From IMG/VR virus record IMGVR_UViG_3300037807_000735, positions 1 to 26,023 of that record: a DNA stretch of 26,023 nucleotides. The stretch is one strand, 5' to 3'. Under the pieces are notes generated by a model. That model did no database searches. It worked only from the letters and a program-made list of their open reading frames with translations, and was not told the DNA's origin. The stretch comes from a virus. A program made the position numbers and the translations under genes. Below are positions 1 to 20,430 of the stretch, one piece after another; positions within the stretch are counted from its first letter, which is position 1; each line of letters opens with the position of its first letter.

Positions 1-3000
1 ACATTATAGAAGAAAGATGGTTTACCAAACCCTGATTTTTCAACATATACTTTATTATCTTTTATTTCTTTTACATATAATTTTTGAAAGGATCCCATAG
101 GTGTTAATTGAACTGTTATTGTATCTTCATTAACTAATCCCGTCCAGTACTCTGGTAATTCAATTACATTATTTTTTTCTACTTTACCACGAACATATAC
201 GCCATTTTCTGGACCTTCAAGAGAGCCATGTTCTAATTTTTTACCCTTTTTTGTTGGATGATTGATTAAGAATGATTTAGATGCAGCAGTTACTTTTCCA
301 CTAAATGTACCAGTTGTACCTGAGAATCCACCTGTGCTTGTTACTGCGCCAGCATTCCAAATTCCCGATGTAACAGTACCTATCGTTGTACTTGTTCCAC
401 TAACGGTTAAATCTGTTAAAGTACCTACTGAAGTAATTGCAGTTTGAGCTGCTGTTGTTACAGTAGCTGCTGTTCCACTTGTATCTGCTGCGTTATTTGG
501 AATATCACCTGATACTAAATCTATAGTTCCACCTAATGTTATTGTGCCAGTTGATGTTATAGTTCCACCAGTTAAAGTAAGTCCACTAACTGTACCTGTT
601 GTAGCAACGGAAGTAACCGTACCAGTTGTTGTTGAGTAACTATAACCTAAAATCTTATCTTGTACTGCAGCTGATGTCATTAAATGGTCATCTACATCAT
701 TAAACTCACCACCAATATCAATATCAGCTATTGAGTGGCCACCAATAGTAATTCCACCAACGGTTATATTACCACTTGTTGTATCATCAGCATTATTTTT
801 AAGAAAAGCATCATCTACATTGAATGTAGTGCCTGATAAAGTTAAATTTGTTCCACCAAGATAGGTTGTATTTGTATTAGTTATCGCTCCAGTTGCTGCC
901 CCTAAGTATCCCCATTGGGTTGCTGTAATTGTTTCGGCACCAATGTTTTGTATTGCTGTTATTTCTGATGCTGCTAAATCTTCTGTTAATGCATATTTTG
1001 TATGGCCTGTAACGGTTGCAGTTCCACTCGAATATCCTACTGAAATTCCTGTTCCACCCGCGACTATTACACTACCTTTGTTAGATGCCGTACTATCCTC
1101 TACTGAAATCGTAACATTTCCCGTTGCACCACTTACATCAATACCAGCTCCAGCAACTGCAGTTGCTACATAATTTCCTGTTGTACCAGTACCAAGAGTA
1201 ATCTGACCACCACCTGCTGCATTAGCGTGTGTGTGAGTAGAGTTTGTAAAACTACCAATTGTAGGTGTTGTTAAAGTTTTATTTGTTAAAGTTTGTGATG
1301 CGGCTAATACAGCAACAGTATCAGTTGCGTTTGGTAAAGTTAATGTTCTATCTGCAGTTGGATCTACAACAGTTAAAGTTGTTTCATAACCATCATCCGT
1401 AGCTCCCTCAAAAATAATTGAACTTGTTACCACAAGTGATGCAGTATTTACAAAAGTCTGTGTTCCTGAAACACTTATATTAGGTACTACTAATGTTGAT
1501 GTACTTGGGTTATAAGTAAATGTTCCTGTATCATCTAATAAAGCATTCGATTCATTGTGTAGAACAATTGGAAAATTTGTATTTGCTGTACTATCTGTAA
1601 CGGTTGTCTTACCTGTGGTTAAACTTGAAGCCGTTCCACTAATATTTGTACCGACTAATGTACTTGGTGTTCCTAAATTTGGTGTTGTTAAAGTAAGCCC
1701 TGCAAGTGTTAATCCAGCTGAACCTCTATTATGTGCAATTGATGTTGTACCTATAAAAAATGTATCTGTTGGTTGAACTGATGCATCCAATAAAGTTTCT
1801 TGAGCATCTGTCATTAATCTTTTGTTCGATGCATCTGTGAAATTGGTAGTTGTAAATGTAGGTGTTGCCCCACTAATAACTGATTGGTTTAGTGCCTTAA
1901 CAGCCGAAATAGATGTTAATTCACTATCCATTAACGCACCAGCTGCAGTTACATTCGCTGTATCGGTTACATCTGCACCTGCTTCAACTCCTGTAGTAGC
2001 ACCAACTGTTAAATTAGCTGCAGTTCCTGTTACATTTGTCATCACACCACTTGCTGGTGTACCTAATGCTGGTGTTGTTAAGACAGGACTTGTTAAAGTT
2101 TTGTTTGTTAATGTTTGAGTGGTTGTTAAGTGTACCGTTTCTGCATCTAAGTTTGCTGATGGTAAAACTCCAGTTACATCTGTGGTTAAATTTATTTGTC
2201 CTCTTGTAATTACTTGGTTACTAAGAGTCAAGTAATCATAGGATCCTGCTAAAGTTACATCACCAGTATTTGTACCACTTGTGTTCTGTAGATTAGCTAA
2301 TAATGTTTCATCAAGTGTTTCTCCACCAACGGTTAATGTACTTGCATCTACATCAATATTACTTGCACTTATATGTGTTGCCTCTATTCTACCAAACGAA
2401 CCAGTTGCGGTTGTTGTGAATCCCGCAGCCGTTATCGTACCACTTGTGGTATCATTCCCACTATTAATAAGAAATGCATCATCTACATTTAAAGTGTCTC
2501 CACTTAGTGAGATATTAGTACCTGCTGCTAAATTTGTATTAGCAGAGATATCAATAGCACTCAATACTGCCATAGAACCTAATCCTAAAGTTGTTCTTGC
2601 ATTTGATGCTTCTGCATCATCAATAAGTGATGCCCCAAAAGTTGAAATTGTTGTACTTGCAGGAAGTGATAGTGTTTTAATATCTGCATCTACTTCACTA
2701 TCCATCAATGCTCCAGCACTTGTTACATTTGCTGTATCGGTTACATCTGCGCTAGTTTCAATTCCATCTAATTTATCGAACATCTCATCAGACATCACAC
2801 CCCAATTAGTTGTATCGGCTAAAGGAAGTACAGCATTATTACCGTCGGATGATACTACATCTAATTTAGTACCATCCCTACTTACAGAAAGATTGGTAGT
2901 TACATTAGTATCCTTAGCAGTATTAGCTGTTACTGCTGAATTATTCCCAACCTCGGTATCAAAATCACTAATTGTTGAAGCTGCTTGAGTTCCTGAGTGA

Positions 3001-6000
3001 TTTGCTCTTGCTAATGGGTTGGTTTCTAATTTAGTATTAGCGATTGAGCCAGCTAACATAGTATTTGTAACTTCACCTGCTGTTACTGTCTGGTTTGAAA
3101 AATCTGTATAATATGTTCCTGTTTGTCCATCAAGTAAATCAGCGTTTAAATTCGTTACTTTTGTAGTGTCATCTACACTTATTGTCCCAAATGAACCAGT
3201 TGAAGTTGATGAACCGCTTATGTTTCCAGATGTAATAAGTCCCGCTGCAGTAATTGTGCCACTTGTAGTATCGTCACCATCATTGATCAAAAATGAATCA
3301 TCAATACTAAGTGTATGAGTAATGCCTTCTCCACTTGTTGCCCCTGTAGAAGTTATGTTTGTGCCTGCGGTAATTGTTCCTACATAGTTACCAGATGTAG
3401 ATGTGCCCAATGCAATTGTATCTACGTTCAATGTGTCACCACTTAATGTAATATTTGTACCTGCTACTAAATTTGTGTCATCACTAATATCAATAACATT
3501 TCGTGTTAAGACTTGATTTGAAAGAGTTACATAGTCACGTGATCCTGCTAAAGTTATATCACCAGTATTTGTTCCACTTGTATTTTGTATATTGCCTACA
3601 ATTGTTTGTGTTAATGGCTGACTACCTACATTGATTGTGGTTGCGTCTACATCTAATACACTTGCTGAAATATGAGTTGCCTCTATTCTTCCAAATGATC
3701 CTGTTGATGTTGTTGTGAAACCACCCGCAGTTATCGTACCACTTGTCGTATCACTTGCATTATTTTTAAGGAATGCATCATCTACATTTAATGTATTACC
3801 ACTTAAAGTAATATTTGTTCCAGCTACTAAATTTGTGTAAGAACTAATATCTATTACATCAGCATTCCATGTGCCTGTTGTTATTACACCTAAGCCAGTT
3901 ATTTGTGTTTGTGAAGAATCAATACTAAGTGTATGAGTAACACCTTCTCCACTTGTTGCGCCTGTAGATGTTATACCAGTTCCGCCTGTCAGTGTTCCCA
4001 CATAATTACCTGTAGTATCAGTGCTGAGAGTTACTGAGTTTGCTTGAATTGTTGCAACACCACCTGATGCTATTGCTATATCACCACTTATTTTACTGAA
4101 TGCAGAACTTGAATAATATGCTGACATTGAACCTGAGTCAACTGAGAAAGTTCTATTAGATGCTATAGTACCACCGCCTGATAATCCTGCCCCTGCTGTT
4201 AGCGTCACAGATGTGTGATCAATATGCTCATTTGATACAAAATTTGTAGTTGAATCATGATCTATGTTAGAAGAAGGATATAATGTTGCATCAGACAAAT
4301 TAAATGCAGGTGTTGCATCTGAGTTACCCAGTGTTACTGTTACACCGCCAAAGTTAACATTATCTGAAGCTAATTTAGAAATTGGAATTTCATCATTATC
4401 TACTATCATATTTGAGAAATCTGTGTAGTATGTTCCAGTTTGCCCATCTAATAAATCAGAATTTAGATTTGTGACTTTAGTTGTTGATTGTACTGTTAGT
4501 GGTGACGTTCCTGTAGTAATACTAGAGTGCAGTTGTGGCGCACTAAAATCTACACTAGATGTTAAAGTTGTATCACTATGTCTATATCTTAGATTGTTTA
4601 CAGATCCCCCAACACCAAAATCTAAACCTGCCCCGTCCATTGTTGCTGAAGTTGTGCTTCCGCTTGCAATTGTTATATTTTTATCTGCTACATTTAGTAT
4701 TGTAGAATCTATACTTGTAGTTGTTCCTTGTACAGTTAAGTCTCCGCTTAGTGTTAATCCTGTGAAAACTGGGGAATCACTTGTACCTAATCCAAGGCTT
4801 GTTCTTGCAGTGTTTCCACTCTCAGCAACGAAGTTACTGCCATCACCGACTATAAAATTTCCATTAGTTACTGCTAATCCAGACACATCGGCGAGTTGTG
4901 CATCGTATGCCTGAACATCGCTTCCTATTATAACTCCAAGATTTGTTCTCGCTGTCGATGCGTCAGACGCTCCAGTGCCACCATGCAATACCCCAATATC
5001 AGTTGCCTCCCAGGCACCAGTACCAATTGTTCCTACAGTTGTAAGATTTGTGGCTGTGGTAATTCCGCTTTGGATTGCTTGAGTAACGCTTCCAGAAATA
5101 TTTCCAGCTGTTGTGAAACCAGCAGCAGTAATTGTGCCACTTGTAGTATCGTCACCATCATTGATCAAAAATGAATCATCAATACTAAGTGTATGAGTAA
5201 TGCCTTCCCCGCTCGTAGCACCAGTAGAAGTTATATTTGTACCTGCCGTGATTGTACCCACGTAATTACCAGTTGTGTCTGTTCCAAGTGTTACTGAATT
5301 TGATTGAATTGTTGCAACACCACTTGATGCTATTACTATGTCACCTGAAACTTTGCTAAAGGCAGAACTTGAATAGTATGCTGACATTGAACCTGAATCA
5401 ACTGAGAATGTTCTATTAGTGGATATGTCACCGCCACCACTTAGTCCAGCGCCTGCTGATAGAGTTATTGCTGTGTGATCGATGTGTTTATTAGAAACAA
5501 AATTTGTAGTCGTATCGTGATCTATTTGAGCAGACCCAGATATTGTTCCTGATGGTAGAATAGCTGTTACACTTCCTGCTGTAACTGTGCCTACAGTGGT
5601 TATGTTTCCTTGAGTGAAATGCTCATTTGATGCAAAATTTGCAGTTGAGTCGTGATCTATTTGAGCTGAGCCTGATATGACGCCTTCAGATGAGATCTTT
5701 GCCTTAACTCTAGCATCTGTGTAATATAAATTTGAAGATCCTTCTGGTAGGGCGTTTGTGTCTGTCTCAGATCCATCCCATGAAATTTGACCATTTGTTA
5801 TATCAATTGCTGTCCCTTCTGAAATATGGGCACGTACTTCAGATGCTGATGGTCCTGTGAAAGTTATTATGCCAGTACTATTGTTATATAGTAGTGAGCC
5901 ATCACCCCCTGAATCTGTTACAGATATTAGTGGTCTTACGTCTGCTTGATTAATAGATCCAGATATTTGGGATCCTGAAATGATTGAGCCAGTTATCGAT

Positions 6001-6605
6001 GTAAAATTTCCAGTAGTTGAAGATGATATACCAATCGTAACACCATCAATTGTTCCACTATTAATATCAGCAGTGTCTGCTACTAGTGCGTCAATATTTG
6101 CTGTACCGTCTATAAATAAGTCTTTCCATTCTTTACTACTTGTACCCAAATCAAATACATTGTCTACATCTGGAATCATACTTCCACTATACTCAGCAAC
6201 TACCTTAATTGTATCTGTGTCTGCATCACCGAGAGTAATTGTACCTCCAAGTGTTAAGTTTCCATTAATTGTAGAATCACCTGTAATATGTAGGGATGAA
6301 CCGCTAATGATTGAACTACTAATTTGAGCTGACCCGAAGTTCACTCCCACACTATCAGCGCTTAAGGTTTGTAAAATAGCGTTATCAGCTGGATCTATAA
6401 ATTTTATTGAGCCACTTGATACATAAATATCTTTCCAAAATTTTGTAGTTGATCCTAAATCGTAAGTGTTAGATGCGTCAGGGATGAATGAACCACTGAA
6501 TACACTAAAACTACCTGTGTCTGCTATGTGTTTTGACCAAGGTTTCGCGTCTGTTCCGATTTGTCCTTGACTTCCAGTTCTTGGTACTATGTTTCTTGTA
6601 GCCAT
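1..6605 (-). CDS. Giant modular tail-fibre-like protein (3' end outside window)
   Basis: The frame starts at an ATG at 6603-6605, with a GGGG stretch about 10 nt upstream, and stays open to the left edge. At least 2,201 residues are therefore visible and the stop is missing. The product is Ser/Thr/Gly/Asn-rich with no Cys-rich or enzymatic motif. Repeated fibre modules include the YDLGS...WKD motif near the N-terminus (twice), [13 protein letters not shown] blocks at about residues 362-443 and 782-863, and GSFGRIEA...DVDA blocks near residues 965 and 1400. The last 95 or so residues switch to a different composition with motifs [24 protein letters not shown] and LPEYWTGL. From memory, this domain ends many fibre-like proteins of marine myoviruses. 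Only a few residues are probably missing. The inferred role is host recognition or a virion fibre; trimerisation is likely but not shown. It follows a run of small structural genes, with a 6-nt gap before it. Confidence 0.85.
3247..3329 (-). repeat. 83-bp perfect direct repeat, copy 1 (inside giant fibre)
   Basis: These 83 bases recur without a mismatch at 5125-5207, 1,878 bp away in the same gene and frame. They encode a shaft phrase containing [20 protein letters not shown] (about residues 1093-1120). Perfect identity at synonymous positions, while flanks differ, suggests recent duplication or gene conversion. Confidence 0.9.
4018..4263 (-). repeat. 246-bp fibre module, copy A (giant fibre)
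   Basis: It encodes a [15 protein letters not shown]...[20 protein letters not shown]...[10 protein letters not shown] block. It aligns without gaps to 5278-5523 in the same gene and 8596-8841 in the separate 658-residue fibre gene. All three are 246 bp long. Confidence 0.8.
5125..5207 (-). repeat. 83-bp perfect direct repeat, copy 2 (inside giant fibre)
   Basis: Partner of 3247-3329; it encodes the same phrase at about residues 467-494 of the giant fibre. Recombination between the copies would delete 626 codons in frame. Confidence 0.9.
5278..5523 (-). repeat. 246-bp fibre module, copy B (giant fibre)
   Basis: Second copy in the giant fibre (about residues 362-443). It shares long runs with copies A and C, for example over the [13 protein letters not shown] codons. 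The 83-bp perfect repeat at 5125-5207 lies about 70 bp further downstream in the gene. Confidence 0.8.
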
Positions 6606-15567: not shown

Positions 15568-15762
15568 TTATTTATTAGCTTTTTTTGATTTTAATTGGGC
15601 CCTTAAGCGTCCTTTAGCACAACGTTCTCTTTTTTCTGCAGACGGCTTTTTATAAAATCTGTTTTCTTGCAACTCATGTAAAAGTCCGGAGTCTTTTACT
15701 TTCTTTTTAAAAATTCGTAATGCTTTTTCGTAATTACCATCAACAACCTTTACGTATACCAT
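15568..15762 (-). CDS. rpsU: Phage-encoded 30S ribosomal protein bS21, 64 aa
   Basis: This 64-residue, strongly basic protein has the bS21 pattern from end to end. It starts MVYVKVVDGNYEKALRIFKK (1-20; compare E. coli VIKVRENEPFDVALRRFKR). The middle is GLLHELQENRFYKKPSAEKR (26-45; compare [20 protein letters not shown]), followed by an Arg/Lys/Ala-rich tail (CAKGRLRAQLKSKKANK). E. coli bS21 is 71 residues, so only the tail is shorter. bS21 sits near the 3' end of 16S rRNA on the 30S platform, next to the Shine-Dalgarno-binding region. Phage copies are known from marine viruses and have been proposed to enter host ribosomes and favour phage mRNAs. Here it sits in the capsid gene block, its ATG directly adjoining the stop of the preceding gene. 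Confidence 0.9.
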   Translation of the reverse strand: MVYVKVVDGNYEKALRIFKKKVKDSGLLHELQENRFYKKPSAEKRERCAKGRLRAQLKSKKANK

Positions 15763-18099: not shown

Positions 18100-20430
18100 T
18101 TAATTATCCTTTTTATTCTCAATACTATTAAGTTTCATTTCAATTTGTTCAACCTCATTTATTACACTGCGCTCTTTATTTTCAAAATGTTTTTTGAGAC
18201 CGTCATAGTGAGAGAGTGCTAATGGACTCTTCCGATAATTATGTTTTATTGGGTTGTCATCTCGTTGGGTTGAATGCAAGTAGTCGTGCTTACCTAAAAC
18301 ATCTCTCACACCGTATGTGTCTCTATCCTCAGTATCTCTATCACTCTTGCCACGTTTAACATTGTTATCATCTTTGACATTATTTTTTTCTGCTTCTTGT
18401 TGTTGGGGTGGATCTGCAGCTGGATCATTCCCATCATTTTCAATAGATTGAAGTCTAAATGACAGTTTTTTATCATTAATTACTTCTTTTTCAATTTTAC
18501 CCACATCATCTGTTGTGAAATTAAAAATATTATCATAAATCCACTGTTGTGATACTAGTGATTCTGACCTCATGTCTCTTGCAATGTTATTTTTCTTTTC
18601 CCAAAGATCCAATCTTTCTTGCTCATAGATAGTTGATGGATTTGTAAGCTCTAAGTCAAAGTCAACTAGCGCAGCATCTGTGTATCCCTGTGAGTATAAA
18701 TGAACCACAGCAATCTTTGTTAACTCACTAACTGTTATTCTTTGTATTCTTTCAATGGTTCTTGCAAAACGTACATCCTCAGCAGCTAACGTTGCTTTAG
18801 ATCCCACTTCTTCTTCATACCCTAAGAAAGCCTTTGGAACGCGTAGCGCTGCCATCATTTTATTACGTAAGTATTCAATATCTTCTACTGCTTCATAAGT
18901 TAAACCGGGAAGTGATTCAATATTAGTACCACTATCACCACCACGAACAGGAAGATAAAAGTCTTCAACTAAATTTTGCATATTGTACTTTAAATTATAC
19001 TCACCAGTCTGATCATCAACAATTGGGACTTTTTTCATTTTGTCTATAATCCGCTTCATATACGTATCAACTTCATTGGGTGGTAAATTACCAATATCTA
19101 CTTTAAAAATTCTTTTTTCTGGCGCTCTCATGATTCTATGAATTAACATAGCGTCCTCCATGAGTGAAAGCTGTTTCCAAACACGTCGTGCACCTTCTAC
19201 CATAGATTTTCCGTAAGGAATATAATTTGAATCTGAAAGAAGTCTAAAGTGAGCTATCTCATAATTTTCAAATTCTGTTTTTGATGCATTTGCTGGAGAG
19301 TTTCTTGGGTCTGTAGGATCGACAACATATTTTACTTCATGCGGATTTGATGGGTTAAATCCTTCTACTCTGGAAACATCGTAAGCAGACATTGGGAGCA
19401 CATTTATAATACCATAGTCCTCTTTAACGTCTAGTTTTAAAAAGAAGTCTCCGTACTTACACATATTACGAATCCACGGCCACAAATTAAACTCAATGTT
19501 TAGTATATCATAAAATAAGTTGTGTAGTATGTCATGAATCTGAGGGTTGTCTGTTTTAATTTCTAATACATTACCGTATTCTGATTTCATTGAACTATTA
19601 TGTGTATACAATTTAGACCCATCATTAGACTCTAATGCGTATATATGATTCTTGCCAGCATTCACTATATCATAAACATCTTCTGAAATTTCAAGCCTTT
19701 TTATAGAAATGATTCTATGATTAGAGCTATCTACAAAATCTGAAAAATGCTTGTATTCATTTTCACGTAAAACGTGGTTAAAAGTTGTCTTGTCTGTGTG
19801 TAATTCACTACACAATTTATCATAATTTCGTTTTGTATTTAATGCAAAAATACCATCACCAACTCTTAAATCCTCAGTGTGTACTAAATCTCTATCTCCA
19901 TTTACCCATCTATGGTTTCCGGTGGATTTTAATTTAGTTCCATCATCCAATATGATTTCGTATACTTTGGCCTTTCCCTTGTATACAACTTTATCAGCTT
20001 TGACTGGTGTAAAATTCCCAGTGTCATCTAAACCATATAACCAAAAATCTTGTTCTTTTTTATCAAACATATCTTTAATAGTTAATTTACGTCCATCTAA
20101 TAGTGGGATTATAGTATCTGAACTTAAACATTCATCTGCATAAATGTCAAGTGCTGATGATAGAATTGGGTCATCATCCATTGCTTCATAATCTCTAAAT
20201 AGAGCTACTCGTTGTGCTTTAGCTAGTTCACCTGAGTAACCGTAGTAGTTCCCATGTGCACCTTGTGATGAGTATAGCCTTGTGTAACGATCCATCAAAT
20301 TATTTGGCGTTCTAGATTGAATCTTGTTAGTATCTACTACTTTTAATTTTTTTCCGCCAACGTTCCTTACAATAACATTAGTTGAAAAAAGTCGTGTAAT
20401 TCTGTCGTAAAAAGTGTCTTGTTTTGCCAT
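18100..20430 (-). CDS. 20: Portal vertex protein gp20 interrupted by a mini-intein, 776 aa precursor
   Basis: The precursor is 776 residues. Removing the 178-residue intein (C101-N278) leaves 598, near marine gp20 sizes (T4: 524). N-extein: DRYTRLYSSQGAHG (about 47-60) and DDDPILSSALDIYADE (85-100). C-extein: SSMKSEYGNVLEI, then MCKYGDFFLKLDV, IAHFRLLSDSNYIPYGKSM, a VWKQLSLMEDAMLIHRIMRA helix, and FYLPVRGGDSGT. All are typical of gp20. A dodecamer of it forms the DNA channel and nucleates prohead assembly. The last 110 or so residues are hydrophilic (DGNDPAADPPQQQEAEKNN) and probably disordered. The ATG lies 1 nt after the gp17 stop. Since the portal is essential, splicing must be efficient for the phage to be viable. 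Confidence 0.95.
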   Translation of the reverse strand: MAKQDTFYDRITRLFSTNVIVRNVGGKKLKVVDTNKIQSRTPNNLMDRYTRLYSSQGAHGNYYGYSGELAKAQRVALFRDYEAMDDDPILSSALDIYADECLSSDTIIPLLDGRKLTIKDMFDKKEQDFWLYGLDDTGNFTPVKADKVVYKGKAKVYEIILDDGTKLKSTGNHRWVNGDRDLVHTEDLRVGDGIFALNTKRNYDKLCSELHTDKTTFNHVLRENEYKHFSDFVDSSNHRIISIKRLEISEDVYDIVNAGKNHIYALESNDGSKLYTHNSSMKSEYGNVLEIKTDNPQIHDILHNLFYDILNIEFNLWPWIRNMCKYGDFFLKLDVKEDYGIINVLPMSAYDVSRVEGFNPSNPHEVKYVVDPTDPRNSPANASKTEFENYEIAHFRLLSDSNYIPYGKSMVEGARRVWKQLSLMEDAMLIHRIMRAPEKRIFKVDIGNLPPNEVDTYMKRIIDKMKKVPIVDDQTGEYNLKYNMQNLVEDFYLPVRGGDSGTNIESLPGLTYEAVEDIEYLRNKMMAALRVPKAFLGYEEEVGSKATLAAEDVRFARTIERIQRITVSELTKIAVVHLYSQGYTDAALVDFDLELTNPSTIYEQERLDLWEKKNNIARDMRSESLVSQQWIYDNIFNFTTDDVGKIEKEVINDKKLSFRLQSIENDGNDPAADPPQQQEAEKNNVKDDNNVKRGKSDRDTEDRDTYGVRDVLGKHDYLHSTQRDDNPIKHNYRKSPLALSHYDGLKKHFENKERSVINEVEQIEMKLNSIENKKDN
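19597..20130 (-). other. Mini-intein in gp20, 178 aa (precursor residues 101-278)
   Basis: The junctions are exact by motif. Block A starts with Cys101 (CLSSDTIIPLLDGRK). Block B is T170-G-N-H173. Block F is the DVYDI at 251-255 followed by NAGKNHIYAL. Block G is LYTHN ending in His277-Asn278, with Ser279 as the +1 nucleophile. Cys1, TxxH, penultimate His and terminal Asn are all present, so a class 1 intein should be able to splice. Only about 55 residues lie between the end of the N-terminal splicing half and block F. No LAGLIDADG, HNH or GIY-YIG motif is visible, hence a mini-intein without homing endonuclease. Rejoining gives YADE-SSMKSEYG, the expected continuous portal sequence. The insertion is in frame, 534 bp. 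Confidence 0.93.

Follow-up and report, generated by a model that had tools for sequence, protein, structure and literature searches.

The window, by which we mean the whole 26,023-nucleotide stretch of viral DNA analyzed here, carries an open reading frame at 18100..20430 (−) that encodes a portal protein precursor of 776 aa, intein included. The match to the Portal_T4 profile (PF07230, 2.2e-66) and the gene order gp17-gp20-gp21-gp23 identify the product as the T4-like portal protein gp20. The gene is flanked by gp17 (terminase, PF03237), which directly adjoins it, and by prohead genes (S77 prohead protease, Gp23). A gene for ribosomal protein bS21 (15568-15762; PF01165, 3.2e-11) is found amid the prohead genes, with an equivalent location in L017 and L018, and a long tail-fiber-like ORF (3-6605), which exceeds 2201 aa and runs past the end of the contig, contains many repeated Ser/Gly/Thr-rich motifs. 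A second, independent contig (L001) harbors an intein identical to that of the window, with one mismatch in 6470 bases; an assembly error is therefore excluded.

Alignment with intein-free portals divides the precursor into three parts. Portal residues 1-100 form the N-extein (20131..20430, (−)), which ends in LDIYADE. Precursor residues 101-278 form a 178-aa insert (19597..20130, (−)). The C-extein (18103..19596, (−)) begins at the +1 residue, Ser279, with SSMKSEYG and is 75-76% identical to the intein-free portals L016-L018. The insert matches the profiles PF14890 Intein_splicing (3.8e-14) and TIGR01445 intein_Nterm (6.9e-9), and its top PDB match by sequence is the Ssp DnaB intein (2.2e-6). 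A Hint fold is predicted by AlphaFold from a 15-sequence alignment (mean pLDDT 90.4), and all 50 PDB matches listed by Foldseek for this model are inteins or intein-like domains, NpuDnaE among them (3.5e-9).

The motifs of a splicing domain are found in order along the insert. The N-terminal splicing region (intein residues 1-100; 19831..20130, (−)) shows 78% identity to the intein of L002 over 99 aa. It opens with Cys1, the N-terminal splicing nucleophile (Cys101; 20128..20130, (−)), and contains the block B motif TGNH (intein T70-H73, precursor T170-G-N-H173; 19912..19923, (−)). The C-terminal splicing region with blocks F and G (19597..19725, (−)) has the conserved sequence DVYDIVNAG...YTHN and ends in the penultimate His and the cyclizing Asn (His277-Asn278, intein H177-N178; 19597..19602, (−)). 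Among 15 inteins aligned at this site, Cys1, T70, H73, H177 and N178 never vary, and every copy examined has Ser or Cys at +1.

Cys1, a TxxH block B, His-Asn followed by Ser279, the Hint fold and profile, and homologs with a continuous empty site are the features of a class 1 intein. The length of 178 aa, the lack of an HNH motif and the presence of only a 35-aa endonuclease relic are those of a mini-intein; the HNH motif that would define a homing-endonuclease intein is absent, though present in same-site relatives. Class 3 inteins have no nucleophile at position 1 and use a WCT triplet instead (PMC5050341), and are ruled out by Cys1. On the evidence of sequence and predicted fold, the stretch 19597-20130 (−) is thus confirmed as a class 1 mini-intein in gp20 of a T4-like phage. 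The sequence-only reading had proposed precisely this: its boundaries were exact to the base, every motif residue that it named stands, and the profile matches and flank alignment that it called for bear it out.

The Hint fold is also common to BIL domains, and BIL structures appear, at lower rank, among the listed Foldseek matches. BIL domains are defined by the lack of a conserved +1 nucleophile. Such a nucleophile is found in every copy examined at the site, and Cys1, TxxH and HN are invariant. In addition, the host protein is both essential and conserved, and its empty sites show no interruption. Hence, failure to ligate the exteins, as in a BIL domain, a Hint domain of Hedgehog type or a dead intein, is highly improbable.

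The empty form of the insertion site is readily recognized. In an alignment that also included the window and T4 gp20, 14 intein-free portals showed no break across the junction (LDIYADE/STMKSEYG), and intein-free relatives read SSALDIYADE/STMKSEYG without interruption. The site would lie in the wing domain, near T4 residue 105 (PMC4493910), a number that is approximate because the T4 alignment is loose around the insertion site. None of 77 nearest portals that span the site carries an insert. This figure comes from the best 80 matches to a stretch away from the site and is not a population frequency, as records near the window may be omitted. When the window intein was compared with the phage record collection, three weak matches, all in other phages, were the only ones obtained, and the isolates in that collection are without this intein. 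No relative was found when bacterial and archaeal genomes were scanned. IMG/VR searches did, in turn, detect numerous phage contigs with an intein at exactly this position of gp20. The sequence-only reading had suggested looking for the site with and without the intein; it occurs both empty and occupied, by full HNH inteins and by mini-inteins.

Most same-site relatives in IMG/VR contigs are 424-433 aa long and have a central HNH-type endonuclease region. The motif HH..F.K.NN.P..L..(x)H...H is invariant in the middle of the aligned full-length inteins, and four of nine members match the HNH_3 profile, at best with E 0.0011, which falls short of the Pfam curated cut-off; the HNH assignment is hence made from a motif plus sub-threshold profile matches. 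Like the window intein, the full-length elements (L002, L005, L103, L106, L107, L110, L254 and others) have the arrangement DE/C...HN/(S or C), and the splicing regions are homologous, with 43-78% identity in the N-terminal part. They differ in keeping the HNH motif and the endonuclease region, which the window intein lacks except for the relic.

Alignment with the full-length HNH inteins matches the window intein to their two ends; about 250 aa in between are missing, and the deletion junction lies at 19830/19831. The last part of the endonuclease region of L002 (RNYDKLCNKINTSKRVFNNILYESGYKHFSDF) is the counterpart, in the alignment, of intein residues ~101-135 (19726..19830, (−); RNYDKLCSELHTDKTTFNHVLRENEYKHFSDF), and this segment forms three helices in the window model and in the L002 model alike. 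Because it aligns to both ends and retains this relic, the window intein is a product of deletion from a full-length intein with an HNH endonuclease, of which some 35 aa of the C-terminal helical region are left. The earlier statement that no endonuclease is visible holds in that none is intact, and needs amending in that a remnant persists. When an exact deletion repeat was sought between the window and L002, which is not established as the true parent, imperfect microhomology only was found (AAATNCNAAAC). In the window-L002 pair, dN/dS is ~0.14 and ~0.07 in the splicing regions and ~0.46 in the relic (32 codons), and the pairwise values include time when the ancestor still carried the endonuclease. 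These values suggest that the splicing regions evolve under purifying selection.

Portal and intein trees tell different histories. In the portal tree, built from extein columns 101-486, the window groups with the intein-free L016-L018 (support 100/99), and site occupancy requires eight changes. In the intein tree, the window joins L002 and L103, whose inteins are full HNH elements (97-98/95). The window and L002 inteins share 81% DNA identity, with pS 0.51-0.59 and synonymous sites not saturated; their exteins share 66%, with pS 0.78 and saturated synonymous sites. Among the other pairs of closely related inteins, most show no higher conservation of the intein than of the C-extein, although some distant pairs, too, have an excess of intein similarity. 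A co-conversion tract was sought beside the insertion site. Comparison windows 71-115 are conserved whichever pair is taken, and the window-L002 values (0.73-0.82) are indistinguishable from those of window-L016 (0.76-0.84). Since the window intein is closer to the L002 intein than the portals are to each other, and the nearest portals are intein-free, the simplest account is that the lineage gained the intein horizontally and that the endonuclease was deleted afterwards. One proposal had been that an element without endonuclease might be an old resident; the trees indicate that it is not simply old.

Loss of the endonuclease has occurred repeatedly at this site. Eight distinct endonuclease-less forms were detected: L233 (141 aa), L098 (148 aa), L229 (149 aa), L239 (149 aa), L146 (154 aa), L240 (165 aa), the window (178 aa) and L102 (194 aa). 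Two of them, L240 and L239, are 98% identical, one being trimmed further. Shortened forms of 369-376 aa are also present. The deletion ends differ among the endonuclease-less inteins. On the intein tree, the mini state involves six changes, each of them dictated by starred branches, and the sister of several minis is a full-length intein; accordingly, the tree needs at least six independent endonuclease losses at the site. The clearest pair is L254 (433 aa) and L233 (141 aa), with 99% identity over the shared aligned intein residues and 96% DNA identity in the adjoining blocks; the longest exact repeat at their deletion ends, TACAAAC, spans just 7 nt and carries little weight. Automatic intein boundaries in L005, L140, L125, L229, L230 and L245 were corrected or set aside, as they reflected a second insert or none at this site. 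The overall pattern is that expected under the homing cycle (PMC1654191) if splicing is constantly selected and the endonuclease is not.

An intein without its own endonuclease might still move in trans, by means of a free-standing homing endonuclease or of a full-length relative during co-infection. Intact HNH inteins do occupy the same site in relatives. In L002, moreover, a free-standing homing-endonuclease-like gene (3026-3697; phrog_314, 0.0016) lies exactly between gp17 and gp20, and a GIY-YIG-like ORF was recognized by eye near gp17 in L098. In the window, however, gp17 and gp20 adjoin directly, and the free-standing endonuclease that the sequence-only reading suggested looking for near gp20 did not appear in Pfam and PHROG scans of the 26 kb, which are part of the genome. 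Mobility in trans is, in our view, unlikely.

Portal inteins are not new: six (PORT) have been described in Cluster C1 mycobacteriophages (PMC5050341, Table 1), and dozens are found here in environmental T4-like gp20 genes. This amends the sequence-only reading, which placed phage inteins mainly in terminase, polymerase and nucleotide-metabolism genes. The mycobacteriophage inteins reside, like that of the window, in a phage portal protein, but both the phage group and the portal group (POG1190) differ. No description of inteins in T4-type gp20 was found in the openly accessible full-text literature. The Ssp DnaB (PDB 1mi8) and Npu DnaE (4kl5) inteins share the Hint fold and the class 1 motifs, and the solved structure of Ssp DnaB is likewise that of a mini-intein; their host genes are unrelated, however, and identity to the window intein in structural alignment is about 20%. 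A further parallel is LR756508, a 484-kb uncultured phage whose T4-type gp20 also contains inteins, among them two that are short (150 and 141 aa) as in the window. Their sites differ (extein ~233 and ~243), and the site occupied in the window is empty in LR756508.

Inteins were also observed elsewhere in these phages. At least six intein sites exist in their gp20 (extein positions ~90, 100, 145, 233-243, 305 and 364-369), with three inteins in the single gp20 of L005 and two in that of L002. The site at 364-369 (e.g., L002 6083-7240) holds HNH_3-like inteins and corresponds, by sequence alignment, to the T4 portal tunnel loop. In LR756508 (L097 2680-6840), gp20 has three inteins, of which the two endonuclease-less ones lie about 10 extein residues apart, and an intein-like insert is also present in an ORF upstream of gp20. 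The terminase gene is affected as well. An in-frame intein-like insert of ~350 aa is found in gp17 of L008 (974-3682), and gp17 of L098 (2528-4694) is divided by an atypical split intein: the N-half ends in a short intein piece and a stop, and the C-half begins with MQKYTLRTN and ends in VSHN/CDFISSG; the intein matches the engineered atypical intein CatC (PDB 6dsl, 2.5e-14). In L103/L104/L105 and L112, the gp20 exteins and the intein contain in-frame TGA codons where relatives have Trp. TGA is thus apparently translated as Trp in these phages; no tRNA gene was found when a TGA-reading tRNA was sought in the short stretches of the recoded loci.

Altogether, we consider it very probable that the window harbors a cis-splicing class 1 mini-intein that descends from a mobile HNH intein, was gained horizontally, and became immobile when its endonuclease was deleted. 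The intein, its site, its ancestry, the deletion and the horizontal gain are the parts of this account shown by sequence comparison. The ancestor was an intein of 428-433 aa with an HNH homing endonuclease, an element that would move at one site among the gp20 genes of these T4-like phages; the window lineage acquired it, and a later deletion of ~250 codons took out the nuclease together with the bulk of the helical region. As for splicing, we infer that the 776-aa precursor is translated and folds, that Cys1 attacks the Glu100-Cys101 bond, that the acyl group moves to the +1 Ser279, and that Asn278 cyclizes with the assistance of His277. Ligation of the portal halves would then yield a normal gp20 of 598 aa, although a slow or conditional reaction would also be compatible with the relic and with the structural model. 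Persistence may need no benefit to the phage, as the portal would stay functional only upon precise excision of the element or with an intact splicing domain.

A different reason for persistence, of the kind that the sequence-only reading raised, would be a post-translational switch for head assembly, with portal maturation delayed by splicing or made conditional on it. A sensor role has been proposed for inteins in other proteins, for instance for the DnaB intein in oxidative stress (PMC6195587). Timing could matter, as gp20 starts head assembly. The purifying selection on the splicing regions of the window-L002 pair might be cited in favor, yet it is expected regardless, because a failed splice kills the portal. 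A switch would also be dispensable, since the nearest portals are intein-free, and the loops of the minis vary widely in length and sequence, which argues against a shared regulatory insert. We regard such a function as quite improbable. The preferred reading, an immobile intein that persists without benefit, has a puzzling side of its own. As the intein is rare among close relatives, mobility must have been lost while empty sites were plentiful, and the simplest account of the homing cycle, in which the endonuclease decays after fixation, would not predict such loss. One tentative and rather unlikely explanation is that in this phage group the HNH endonuclease has been repeatedly selected against, and has not merely decayed after fixation.

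The T4-type portal gene is rich in inteins, which lengthen the ORF and break alignments, a circumstance that matters for the use of gp20 as a marker gene of environmental T4-like phages. Full-length, shortened and endonuclease-less alleles, together with many empty ones, are found at one site of one gene, and the minis could serve directly as small inteins in splicing work. With at least six losses and a near-identical pair that represents the states before and after, the decay half of the homing cycle becomes testable in phages. If selection against the endonuclease were true, this natural deletion series would show that homing is costly in phages, contrary to the simplest homing-cycle model.
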